Below, piece after piece: positions 12,703 to 17,170 of a stretch of DNA of 64,000 bases. This stretch comes from Verrucomicrobiales bacterium (GTDB lineage Bacteria; Verrucomicrobiota; Verrucomicrobiia; Verrucomicrobiales; DEV007): contig JARGPH010000008.1 in assembly GCA_029213065.1 (NCBI GenBank), positions 1 to 64,000 on the forward strand, read 5' to 3'. A program made the position numbers and the translations under genes. Position 1 is the stretch's first letter. Each line of letters starts with the position of its first letter. A model generated the notes under the pieces. It worked only from the letters and a program-made list of their open reading frames with translations. It did no database searches and was not told the origin of the DNA.

Positions 12703-15597
12703 CTATTCGTAGCGAAGTTGGACCGTTGCTGTGGTCTCAGTGTCACTGATGGCACGGATCCAGTAGGCGCTGAATTCGATGGGAAATTCCCCTTCGATGA
12801 CGGCGCCCGGTTTGACTTCGAACGATTCGTAAGGAACCCAGACGCCGGTTCCGTCGACATCCATTTCCAGACGAATCGTTGCTGCTTCCGTTGATTCAAT
12901 TTGGAAGCTCTTTTTGTCATACCCTGTCATTAGATAGGGATCTGAAGGCGTTTCCGCTTTCACCCCGGTATTCTTCCAGGGGCCTCCGAGGCCGCGTGGC
13001 TTTCCGAGTTTCCAGAGGTCGTCAATCACACCCGCCCAGACCGCGGCTTTCCCGTCAGGGCTTCGGAGGATGTGATCGCTCTCTGTCTCGGGATCGAGCC
13101 CGGTGAAGAAAAGGAGTCCGTTGTGCGAGCAGAAGTCCTGAATCGCGAGATTGTGCGTTGCAACGGGGCGCACCTTGGCGAGCCCCTGAGCGTTCCGCGC
13201 CGGCAGCTCGTAAACGGTTCCGTGAACGTTGAGCAGATCGCGTTCTGTCGCGACTTCGCGGCAAATGCGCGCCGGTCCGAGTCCGTCGATCTGATACCGT
13301 TCGATTTCCGGAACGTGATCGAACGCGGCAATTTCGTAAATGCGGAAAGGGGCTTTGTTCGTCGCGAGGAGGCGCAGCTTTTGTGCGGTGATCGGTGCTG
13401 CCAGCGGAATTTCTCTTTCCACGGAACGATTCCCGCGGATCTCGCCGTTCTCGATTGTTACCCATTCTCCGTCGATTTCCGTTTGAACATCAAACTCTCT
13501 CGCGGCAAAGCCTTCGTCATTTTTCCAACCTGAGACAACCCAGAGGTTCGCAATCGTTTCCGGTTCCTCAAAGGTGAACTCGATCCAGCTGGCTTCGCCT
13601 TCTTTACCGATCCAGCGGGATGAATCAGTAATTTTTCCATCGTTCGCAAATTTGGCAGCGTATTCTCCGAATGCCGCGCTGGCGCTGACAGTTGCTTTAC
13701 GTGTGAGGCTTTTCCCGAGAATTGATTCGAGGTCGGCAACCGGTTCGCCGGTGCTTTCCGCTTCCTCTTTTACATAGTCCGGATTGAGGGGAAGGCGGTA
13801 GCGCTGGCCGTCTTCGATCAGGAGAATCGAGGCGTCATCGACGCTGATGACGCCTTCGGGCTGCCGGACATTTTTTGCGAGCTTCGACGCGGCGGCAGGA
13901 CTGTCGACGGGGGTGAACTCCAGTTTCGAATTGATTTCGTAGTAGCTGTAGTCATCGGGATTGGACTTCGATGCTGCGACCAGCCCGAGTGTGTCATAAG
14001 CGAGACTCTGCATCACACCGGTCAGTGCAGGCGTTTCCCCGGCAGGGACCAATCCGGCAAAGATGGCGTCATTCTCAGCGGAGCGTTTGTCCTCTTTGCG
14101 ATACTGAAAATGGGCCGTTGCCATGGCGGTGTCTTTGTCAGGGCTGATCCGGATCCAGGCACCCGCGTCGCTTTTTTCAAAGGCATGGAAAACGGATTCG
14201 CCTGCCTCAACCGTGATTTCCTTCAGTACAGTCCACTCGTTCGTGCCGTCCTTGTCCACTTCGAGGGTGAAAGTGACGGCGTCTTCGTTTCCGTGGCTGA
14301 GATGGAGGAGGCGGTGGTCGTAGCCCGAAAAGAGGTAGGGGAGGCTCATCGCGCCGGCGGCGACTTTTTCGTTGAGCCAAACCGATCCGCGTCCGATTGC
14401 GGGACCGAAAGAGTCGAGGTCTTCGGGAGCGATAAACCAGAGGTTGGAGTTCGACTGCCGCGGAGCTCCATGTTCAGCTTTGAAGGGGCGGGTGTTGAGG
14501 AATTCTCCCGCAGCGGAGTCGTCGCATCCGAGGACGAGTCGATCCTCCCAACGGCAAAAGTCGCCGATCACTTTCAGGTAGTTCGATCTCGGGGCGATTC
14601 CGGCAGAGTTCCTGCGTGAAAATCTGGAGGGAAAATCCCAGAAGGTGCCATGCATCGTCGCGAGGAATTTTTCCTCTCCGATATCACGAATTCGCGGCCA
14701 TTCCGTATTCCAGCCGTGGGCACCGTCGTAGCTGTGGCTCCCTTTGGGAAGGCGGTAGAAGTGCCATTTCTTGTTTTCAAGGAGGGCGATAAGAAGTGAT
14801 CTCGCGTCCCAGCCCATCGACCAGACCGGATCCGTTTCCGGCTTTTTGTTTCCGCTGATGCCTCCGGGACCGGTGATTTCAGTGAACTGCTCGCGAAGAA
14901 CCAGCTCCCAGTCGCCTTTTCCAAACCATTGCGCGAGGGCACCGGAGATGGCTTCAGGATCTTTGAGGGCCTCGGAGGATCGTTCCCCGTTGTTGCTGTA
15001 GAGAAGTCGTCCCTGACCGGAATAGAGCCCTTTCCCGTGGTAGCCGGGCAGCTTGCTTGCGATTCCCGGGGAATCCTTGTCGTGCCCGTCCTTGATCAGG
15101 TTTTTCACGGCAAGGGTGTTCACGTCCACTTCGTAGAGCCCTTCCTCCATCGTCGCGTAGTAGACCTTGTTTTGGGGATCTGTCAGGTGGCGGGCATTGC
15201 CGGTGAGTCTCCCGGACATTTTCGAAGGGGGAATGACGCGAATGTTTTTCTCCGCATCAATCAGATAGGGACCAATGAGGAGCTGCTTGCTCTCTTCGTG
15301 AATCATCCGGTTTGCGGGGGTGCCGCCGACGCTGCCTTCGAATATATGCTGACTGAGATCCGGGCTGATTCGGTAAAGTTTGTCGGTCGAGCCATTTGGC
15401 TGGTGCGGGGCGTAGGTGATCGCCCAGAGTTCACCCTGCCAAACCACTACGGCTCCAGTCCCGGCTTCGTTGTGGGTGTTCCACATCCGCAGATGCGGGT
15501 AGACTCCGGAAATACTGATGGGTTCGTCGGCATGAGTCTCAGGCGTGAGGGTGAGCACAAACGCAGCGAGGGTGATGAAAAATGATTTACGTTTCAT
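12703..15597 (-). CDS. Large secreted protein with a discoidin-type domain
   Basis: The 964-residue protein starts with a signal peptide (KRKSFFITLAAFVLTLTP, likely cut after THA). Residues 30-400 have repeated strand and turn patterns such as LWAITYAPHQPNGSTDKLYR and YYATMEEGLYEVDV, which suggest a beta-propeller. Residues 640-760 look like an F5/8 type C (discoidin) domain: ATVSASAAFGEYAAKFANDG, SRWIGKEGEASWIEFTF, then KLRLLA and FRIYEIAAF. Such domains often bind carbohydrate. The start and end of the chain share an HLLHLSHG/YDKKSFQIE-type motif, so the C-terminal region may repeat an inner one. I cannot assign a reaction. It is transcribed alone. Confidence 0.7.
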   Translation of the reverse strand: MKRKSFFITLAAFVLTLTPETHADEPISISGVYPHLRMWNTHNEAGTGAVVVWQGELWAITYAPHQPNGSTDKLYRISPDLSQHIFEGSVGGTPANRMIHEESKQLLIGPYLIDAEKNIRVIPPSKMSGRLTGNARHLTDPQNKVYYATMEEGLYEVDVNTLAVKNLIKDGHDKDSPGIASKLPGYHGKGLYSGQGRLLYSNNGERSSEALKDPEAISGALAQWFGKGDWELVLREQFTEITGPGGISGNKKPETDPVWSMGWDARSLLIALLENKKWHFYRLPKGSHSYDGAHGWNTEWPRIRDIGEEKFLATMHGTFWDFPSRFSRRNSAGIAPRSNYLKVIGDFCRWEDRLVLGCDDSAAGEFLNTRPFKAEHGAPRQSNSNLWFIAPEDLDSFGPAIGRGSVWLNEKVAAGAMSLPYLFSGYDHRLLHLSHGNEDAVTFTLEVDKDGTNEWTVLKEITVEAGESVFHAFEKSDAGAWIRISPDKDTAMATAHFQYRKEDKRSAENDAIFAGLVPAGETPALTGVMQSLAYDTLGLVAASKSNPDDYSYYEINSKLEFTPVDSPAAASKLAKNVRQPEGVISVDDASILLIEDGQRYRLPLNPDYVKEEAESTGEPVADLESILGKSLTRKATVSASAAFGEYAAKFANDGKITDSSRWIGKEGEASWIEFTFEEPETIANLWVVSGWKNDEGFAAREFDVQTEIDGEWVTIENGEIRGNRSVEREIPLAAPITAQKLRLLATNKAPFRIYEIAAFDHVPEIERYQIDGLGPARICREVATERDLLNVHGTVYELPARNAQGLAKVRPVATHNLAIQDFCSHNGLLFFTGLDPETESDHILRSPDGKAAVWAGVIDDLWKLGKPRGLGGPWKNTGVKAETPSDPYLMTGYDKKSFQIESTEAATIRLEMDVDGTGVWVPYESFEVKPGAVIEGEFPIEFSAYWIRAISDTETTATVQLRYE

Positions 15598-15738: not shown

Positions 15739-16905
15739 ATGAAAATCCGAAATCTTCTTTTGTCTGTGTCTGTTTTGACAGGCTGCTTCTTACTCGCTGC
15801 CTCAAGTGGATTTGCCGAACTCGATAAGTCCGATTTTGAAACGCTTCACGAGTCGTTGAAGCCGGATAGCACTGAGTCCTGGCGTCAGATTCCATGGCGG
15901 ATATCTCTGCTTGAAGGGCAGCGGGTCGCTGCCGCGGAGGGCAAGCCGATCTTCATCTGGGCGATGGACGGGCACCCTTTAGGATGCACCTGAAACAACG
16001 GAGTGCTCGACCGTGCGTCGACTTTTGCAGATCCCGCCATCGTTGAATTGCTCAAGACGAGGTTCATTCCCGTCGCAATCGATCAGGCTTATCAACGGCG
16101 CCAGAAAGACGCCGAAGGGGAGTTCTATCGGAAAATTGCGCTTCAGGGGCCGCGCCACGATTTCGAGGGTTCGACCACTCAGGGGTTCTATGCCGCGACG
16201 AGTTCAGGGGCATTGCTCTTTTACAACAACTACCGCGGTCCCGGAGGTGAAGAAGGGCTCATCGGCGAGTTGAACGCCGCGTTCACGGTCGCATCAGTGG
16301 TGCAGGATGTCGCTCCCATCGCGGATGGCGAGCTGGATCGCAGATACAATCCCCGCCCGCCGGAGGGCGGCCTTGTGTTGCGCGCCCATGCGAAAGTGCT
16401 GCATGGCTATGACCCGCCCGAAGACCGGTTTCAGAAAATCTTTCAGGAAGGGCTCGGCCGCGACAATTTCTGGATCACCGCGGCCGAACATGAGGCGCTC
16501 GTGAGAGGGGAGTTGCCGGAGTCATTGAAATTGCGATTGGTTCGCTATCATTTTGTCGACAACACGAGGGGAGAACCGCCGATGTGGGCGCGTGATGAAG
16601 TTCGATCGCTCTCGATGACCTTGAAAGACGGCGAGTTGAGAGGTTCCGTCAGTCTTTCGACTGCGGACGGGAAGCGCAGCTACGACGCGGAAATGCTCGG
16701 TTACGTCGAAACCGATGGAAGCAAGGTGACCCGCATGGATATCGTTGTTCGCGGGCTTTTTGAAGGGCGCGGTGAATACACCAAAGACCCGCCTCCGGGG
16801 AAATTTCCCCTCGCGATTTCGTTCACGATTGCCGACGGCAGCGACACCGCCGACGCGATTCCACCCCAGGGTTCCCGGGGATGGGTCGAGGGCTATTTTG
16901 AGTAG
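15739..16905 (+). CDS. Candidate exported thioredoxin-like selenoprotein (in-frame UGA)
   Basis: Two open stretches in the same reading frame, 15739-15990 and 15994-16905, are separated only by one TGA at 15991-15993. Read through, they give a 388-residue protein with a signal peptide (a lipoprotein cut at VLTGC or a standard cut after GFA). A thioredoxin-like core then reads FIWAMDGHPLGCT, the UGA residue, then NNGVLDRASTFADPAIVELL. The UGA lies two residues after a Cys, where thioredoxin-fold proteins keep their redox pair, and a hairpin of the right size and distance follows it. I therefore read UGA as selenocysteine. The C-terminal half (residues 150-388) is unrecognised and may carry its own fold. 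A nonsense mutation is the alternative, but there is no decay after the stop. The SelA, SelB, SelD and tRNA-Sec genes are not in this window. Confidence 0.75.
15991..16021 (+). promoter_or_regulatory. Putative bacterial SECIS element with its UGA codon
   Basis: The UGA at 15991-15993 is followed by a perfect 5-bp stem, TCGAC (16007-16011) with GTCGA (16017-16021), and the loop CGTGC. The loop begins 18 bases after the UGA and has G at its second position. Bacterial SECIS elements are hairpins within the coding region just after the UGA, with a G near the start of a small loop, so spacing and loop fit. The lower stem is poorly paired (a C-C mismatch, then wobbles), which is the weak point. Confidence 0.55.
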
Positions 16906-16920
16906 TCTGCCTCGCAGCCG

Positions 16921-17170
16921 CGTCCCGAGGGCGCGGACGTATGGTCTGGGATGTCCGGGTGGTCAGAGAGCGAGGTCGAGGCCCTCATCTACAGGATTGC
17001 GCGCGAGCGCTGTATCCGCGTCCCGAGGGCGCGGACGGAAGGTGTGGTACGTTCGGGTGGTAAGAGAGCGAGGTCGAGGCCCTCACCTACAGGATTGCGC
17101 GCGAGCGCTGTAGCTGCGTCCCGAGGGCGCGGACGGATGGTCTGGAATGTTCGAACGGTCAGAGAGGGAG
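16921..17170. repeat. 98-base tandem repeat, about 2.5 copies
   Basis: Units begin at 16921, 17019 and 17117, each with CGTCCCGAGGGCGCGGACG. The first two units are complete, ending in TTGCGCGCGAGCGCTGTA. The third stops after about 55 bases. Units differ at roughly one base in ten. The array fills the gap between the selenoprotein candidate and hemQ. It contains open frames in several phases, but these follow from the repeat and GC content, so I do not call a gene. Confidence 0.85.

Follow-up and report, generated by a model that had tools for sequence, protein, structure and literature searches.

A 2026 inventory (PMC13188914) contains 119 prokaryotic selenoprotein families and subfamilies, and its catalogue includes a Thioredoxin_7-type member, the Trx7/PDZ domain (seleno)protein (NF041199). 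Another thioredoxin (Trx)-like selenoprotein, VPGUxxT type 2, is represented by the model NF041383. Here, we describe a gene that would encode an exported selenoprotein of thioredoxin-like fold in a Verrucomicrobiales bacterium. The gene lies in a stretch of 64,000 nucleotides (contig JARGPH010000008.1, positions 1 to 64,000, assembly GCA_029213065.1), hereafter referred to as the window. Judged by its sequence, it represents a new family that belongs to the bacterial thioredoxin-fold selenoproteins. Nothing recognizable as an equivalent family is present in the 119-family table of the inventory (PMC13188914), and literature searches that did not extend to supplementary tables (among them the PMC4807772 list of selenoproteins) returned no description of this family. 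An earlier planctomycete genome paper reports selenoprotein candidates, and single members may have been annotated previously.

For comparison with known families, no match of the window protein (P0001) reaches the cut-off in NCBIfam (June 2026) or Pfam. NF041383 gives a weak profile match (residues 50-119, E = 0.012, 15.3 bits). However, this match is far from the 275-bit cut-off and aligns only the Trx part, and the window protein has the motif GCTUNNG rather than VPGUxxT. NF041199 gives no match at E values up to 10. Its motif is CxxU and its second domain is PDZ, whereas the second domain of the window protein is beta-barrel-like. The Thioredoxin_7 (PF13899) and DUF255 (PF03190; Thioredox_DsbH) groups are similar in fold (AGR3, ERp19, DsbH, and DsbD gamma, Z 8.5-12.7) and give weak Pfam matches in 14-26 of 49 family members. 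However, the window protein scores 12.2 and 11.4 bits, respectively, against a gathering cut-off of 27, and it has selenocysteine (Sec) in place of CxxC, Gly at +3, and an extra C-terminal domain. Among eukaryotic proteins, SELENOF (Sep15) has a C-x-U motif in a thioredoxin-like fold and resides in an oxidizing compartment. The resemblance is a functional analogy only, and no homology is claimed.

The gene and its features, with the selenocysteine insertion sequence (SECIS) and the predicted local distance difference test (pLDDT) of the AlphaFold model, are as follows:

15739-16905, forward strand: selenoprotein gene, 388 residues including Sec85, stop codon TAG at 16903-16905 (translation and homolog identity)
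15739-15816, forward strand: probable Sec-type signal peptide, residues 1-26, MKIRNLLLSVSVLTGCFLLAASSGFA (by eye; homolog leaders; AlphaFold helix 2-20)
15868-16305, forward strand: predicted thioredoxin-like domain, residues about 44-189 (pLDDT 92; structural matches)
15985-15987, forward strand: Cys83 of the C-T-U motif, invariant in 49 aligned family members
15991-15993, forward strand: UGA codon, very probably read as Sec85 (TGA also in all further close-family matches examined that cover the site)
16007-16021, forward strand: SECIS-like hairpin, stem UCGAC/GUCGA (16007-16011/16017-16021), loop CGUGC (16012-16016), 18 nt after the UGA (covariation and synonymous constraint)
16363-16833, forward strand: predicted C-terminal beta-barrel-like domain, residues about 209-365 (pLDDT about 91-92; weak matches)

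Translation of the frame gives 84 codons, a single in-frame TGA at codon 85, and 303 further codons, exactly as an earlier note on this DNA had read it. This geometry by itself is not unusual in the window, in which same-frame stretches of at least 70 and at least 250 codons split by one stop occur eight times, five of them at TGA. Single-sequence folding compared with shuffled sequences is also not significant (z = -0.59 for the hairpin and +0.15 for 50 nt). Because neither the open reading frame geometry nor the lone hairpin exceeds chance in the window, the case for a selenoprotein rests on the homologs.

In 84,980 species genomes scanned, 80 homologous loci were identified, almost all in Planctomycetota and Verrucomicrobiota. 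Amino acid sequence identity to the window protein is 48-66% along most of the length for 79 of these homologs and 36% for the remaining one (L080). Down to this level of identity, TGA is present at the identical codon in all 81 sequences (the 80 closest homologs and the window). The block around the site, IFIWAMDGHPLGCT-U-NNGVLDR, has few substitutions in these sequences. Conservation at the protein level is found on either side of the TGA, with many invariant residues in the 303 downstream codons. The metagenome-assembled quality of the genomes and the eight split frames in the window may suggest that the TGA arose by sequencing error or by a mutation that disabled the gene, leaving a pseudogene or two separate genes. 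However, the same TGA in 81 independent sequences, the conservation of the protein on both sides, and the covariation of the hairpin (see below) leave this explanation with practically no chance, and conservation already refutes it. A UGA that acts as a selenium-responsive switch, with the 84-residue termination product as the functional form, may also be considered, given that termination and Sec insertion compete at UGA in bacteria (PMC4513850). The strong constraint on the downstream codons argues against such a switch, as does the short product itself, which would amount to half a thioredoxin domain; we regard it as very improbable.

Similarly, the frame would be open through the TGA if UGA were decoded as Trp or Cys by reassignment, or if it were read through without a SECIS. 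Among the 79 homologs with a complete 3' end, however, the terminal stop codons are 36 TGA, 24 TAG, and 19 TAA. UGA thus still functions as a stop codon in the genomes concerned, which excludes a reassigned genetic code. Moreover, the distribution of the gene tracks that of selA, and a SECIS-like hairpin covaries at the correct spacing. These alternatives are therefore highly improbable, and insertion of Sec is the explanation that we follow below.

Profile searches for further members covered 344 Planctomycetota genomes and 387 genomes from the same order as the source bacterium, and they added many more. The strong matches that cover the site each carry exactly one TGA, and it was located at the codon 85 position in the added matches that were inspected base by base. 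Strong matches without a TGA start downstream of the Sec site. For several of these (e.g., in G720, G800, and G969), the 5' part is a separate match with its own TGA. Two remnants have lost the Sec site: L203 (genome G748) retains the 3' half while its 5' half has decayed, and L138 (genome G398) is a 3' remnant only. Genome G398 has no selA match, which, together with the lost site, is consistent with decay following the loss of Sec use.

The earlier note had raised the replacement of the UGA by Cys in relatives as a check. No Cys was found at the Sec site among the close relatives recovered, and this expectation is modified accordingly. It held for L132, a full-length distant paralog with 29% identity to the window protein and a Cys at the site (SPLGNC); this distance is the only level at which a full-length Cys form was found. 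Shorter distant Trx proteins have Cys or other residues at this position. Given that UGA is present in every close relative found and that none has Cys, the family appears to be Sec-only and selenium-dependent. In one genome (G417, contig C37), two paralogs are neighbors (L135 and L136), one with TGA and the other with a Ser codon (TCG) at the Sec position.

The hairpin was found at the position given in the earlier note, with a 5-bp stem and a loop that starts 18 bases after the UGA, and it is a conserved, covarying SECIS-like element. Every cell of the stem is paired in 65 distinct sequences. When diverged branches are added, 98.5% of the cells remain paired and compensatory changes are present at all five stem pairs; in this diverse set, 31 double-change cells were observed, compared with 8.3 +/- 2.0 in shuffles. 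The covariation score of the stem is 0.549, compared with 0.252 +/- 0.022 when shuffled and 0.136 or less when slid, such that the signal is lost when the partner strand is moved by 1-3 columns. In L209, the pairing is retained despite a change in the protein (codons AAC...TTC in place of GAC...TCG). Synonymous constraint is also concentrated in this region: codons 86, 91, 92, and 94 rank first to fourth among 157 conserved degenerate columns, and Arg92 is encoded by CGT in 80 of 81 sequences. Codon 86 adjoins the UGA, just upstream of the hairpin. The loop consensus is CGUGN, with G at loop position 2 in all 65 rows.

The bacterial SECIS model of the 2026 inventory (PMC13188914) has an upper stem of 4-16 bp, an apical loop of 3-9 nt, a G within the first two loop positions, a UGA-to-loop spacing of 16-37 nt, and a minimum free energy (MFE) at or below -7.5 kcal/mol. 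The hairpin lies within the limits for stem (5 bp), loop (5 nt), loop G, and spacing (18 nt). Its energy is equivocal, with an MFE of -5.0 kcal/mol for the hairpin alone and -10.0 kcal/mol for the 50-nt stretch with extra pairs. An Rfam search around the UGA gave no match. In the branch of L208 and L210 (YLWEMDGHPLGC[TV]-U-NNGVTDRLL), the position of the hairpin is kept and its stem and loop (AGGUU) are different. When sequences of the distant MNGHPLGCTU[GN]NG branch were folded together, no clear SECIS consensus emerged, and the register of the hairpin seemingly varies between branches.

For the Sec machinery, all of the genes that the earlier note proposed to look for are present in the genome. 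Both selA and selB score above the cut-off and are approximately 4 kb apart on contig C52, selD is located on the same contig (G000:C52:244838-245767), and a tRNA-Sec has the anticodon UCA. The selD gene contains one in-frame TGA and, judging from this sequence, probably encodes a second selenoprotein. Among 50 genomes carrying the gene, selA is above the cut-off in 48 and tRNA-Sec was found under strict filters in 45; only one genome (1.7 Mb) is without both. In the Planctomycetota sample (n = 344), selA is present in 67 of the 69 genomes with strong family matches, against a background of 187 among all 344 genomes (Fisher p = 2.6e-18). Among 289 Verrucomicrobiota genomes, 17 have selA, and both genomes with a family match are among those 17. 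In addition, the gene is convergent to a SelD fusion/selA/selB cluster at six Rhodopirellula-type loci (L049, L050, L056, L061, L062, and L063). The convergent oxidoreductase/SelD fusion gene lies 0.2-1.1 kb from the selenoprotein gene, with selA and selB next where the contig extends, and the SelD-fusion neighbor is also visible at a seventh, truncated locus (L053). The UGA in the homologs, the covariation of the hairpin, and the Sec machinery strongly support the candidate selenoprotein put forward in the earlier note, and we estimate the probability that Sec is inserted at UGA codon 85 at about 0.95.

The N-terminus resembles a signal peptide by eye, and most homologs likewise begin with a hydrophobic leader. 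We infer that the protein is exported, in agreement with the earlier note, whose thioredoxin-like assignment also finds support in the AlphaFold model and structural matches. The model of the full protein (pLDDT 92.2; predicted template modeling score 0.88) has a predicted thioredoxin-like fold in which Sec85 directly precedes helix 86-95, i.e., it is placed at the N-terminus of this helix. In the VIA structural search, the Trx domain matched 3f9u, an exported Bacteroides thioredoxin-like domain (Z 13.4, root-mean-square deviation 2.9 over 125 residues), followed by AGR3 (Z 12.7), 1sen (ERp19; 11.8), and DsbH (10.7), with AGR2 also among the best. The C-terminal domain gave weak VIA matches (best Z 5.6 when predicted alone) and has a calycin/barrel-like topology. 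Foldseek with the full model found nothing at an E value of 0.001 or better, and phmmer and profile searches of PDB sequences returned only a spurious weak match to a carboxylase. Within the motif GHPLGCT-U-NNG, Cys83 is located two residues upstream of Sec85, as the earlier note had it, the NNG is invariant, and Gly88 occupies the +3 position, which is that of Cys in UxxC proteins. Relative to the CxxC motif, a gapped profile alignment places Sec85 at the second Cys, whereas its position at the helix does not discriminate between the first and the second.

In the proposed mechanism, SelB with Sec-tRNA(UCA) would bind the SECIS hairpin 18 nt downstream, selenocysteine would be inserted at UGA codon 85, and translation would proceed for 303 codons past it. 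The chain would then be exported and form the thioredoxin-like domain and a small beta-barrel-like domain. Sec85 may act as the attacking nucleophile, with the selenenylsulfide resolved by Cys83 or an outside thiol. On the basis of the predicted fold and the motif, we lean toward an exported (periplasmic) selenol/thiol oxidoreductase. Alternatively, Sec may be inserted in a protein that is not a disulfide oxidoreductase. Examples are a selenol peroxidase and a protein that binds a metal or ligand, in which the beta domain would hold a ligand that Sec85 and Cys83 coordinate or reduce. The invariant NNG after Sec85, which leaves no Cys at +3, unlike in UxxC redoxins, is consistent with this possibility, as is the calycin/barrel-like topology of the second domain. 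AGR-type Trx proteins, which include members with incomplete active sites, also rank high in the fold search. However, the beta-domain matches (Z 5.6 or below) are in the range of common arrangements, and no conserved neighbor gene indicates a substrate. We consider this alternative possible but less likely.

Several points weigh against Sec insertion or against the proposed oxidoreductase. The MFE of the lone hairpin is -5.0 kcal/mol, above the -7.5 limit. Two of the genomes carrying the gene have no selA match, namely those of L022 (the 1.7-Mb genome) and L070 (which has a tRNA-Sec). The Pfam scores are below cut-off, and the function is read from fold and motif only. Furthermore, Cys83 is replaced in a few distant UGA paralogs (LGQT, LGPT, LGYV, and AGET). 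Given that it is invariant in the family and replaced in these paralogs, Cys83 may be a resolving residue replaceable by an outside thiol. We infer the redox chemistry, the role of Cys83, and the substrate, and the fold is a computed one.

A single copy of the selenoprotein gene was found in the genome. Its left neighbor is divergent (12703-15597, minus strand). A 98-bp tandem repeat of 2.6 copies (16916-17170) starts 11 bases past the stop codon. The plasmid records searched contained no match to the gene. Around the homolog loci, no widely conserved gene neighbor was found, except for the Sec cluster in one Rhodopirellula-type lineage.

Distant UGA proteins that share the architecture of the family occur frequently in the samples, with the motifs MNGHPLGCTU[GN]NG..R.SVW, GHCLGYVUGNG, PPHTVCUAAG, DDTRCUVFAG, and QPVGRCUGMG. 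Further diverged UGA families of this architecture occur in Planctomycetota (L133, L149, L150, L151, L190, L154, and L162). Representatives of the distant UGA families had no NCBIfam model above cut-off. It is likely that a large unrecognized superfamily of exported selenoproteins with Trx and beta domains exists in Planctomycetota and Verrucomicrobiota, and that the family described here is its best-conserved branch. This superfamily would be almost entirely Sec, with close branches lacking Cys forms and several paralogs per genome, and may have been missed because some methods require Cys homologs. Two features are unusual: close relatives lack Cys forms, and the related UGA superfamily seems to be large. 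Gene callers would split such genes or call them broken, and thus they are likely misannotated. Families of this kind, whose close members all keep UGA and have no Cys counterpart, are blind spots for annotation and offer a natural test of why certain proteins must retain selenium. In addition, the family suggests that Planctomycetota and Verrucomicrobiota have an exported selenoproteome of considerable size.
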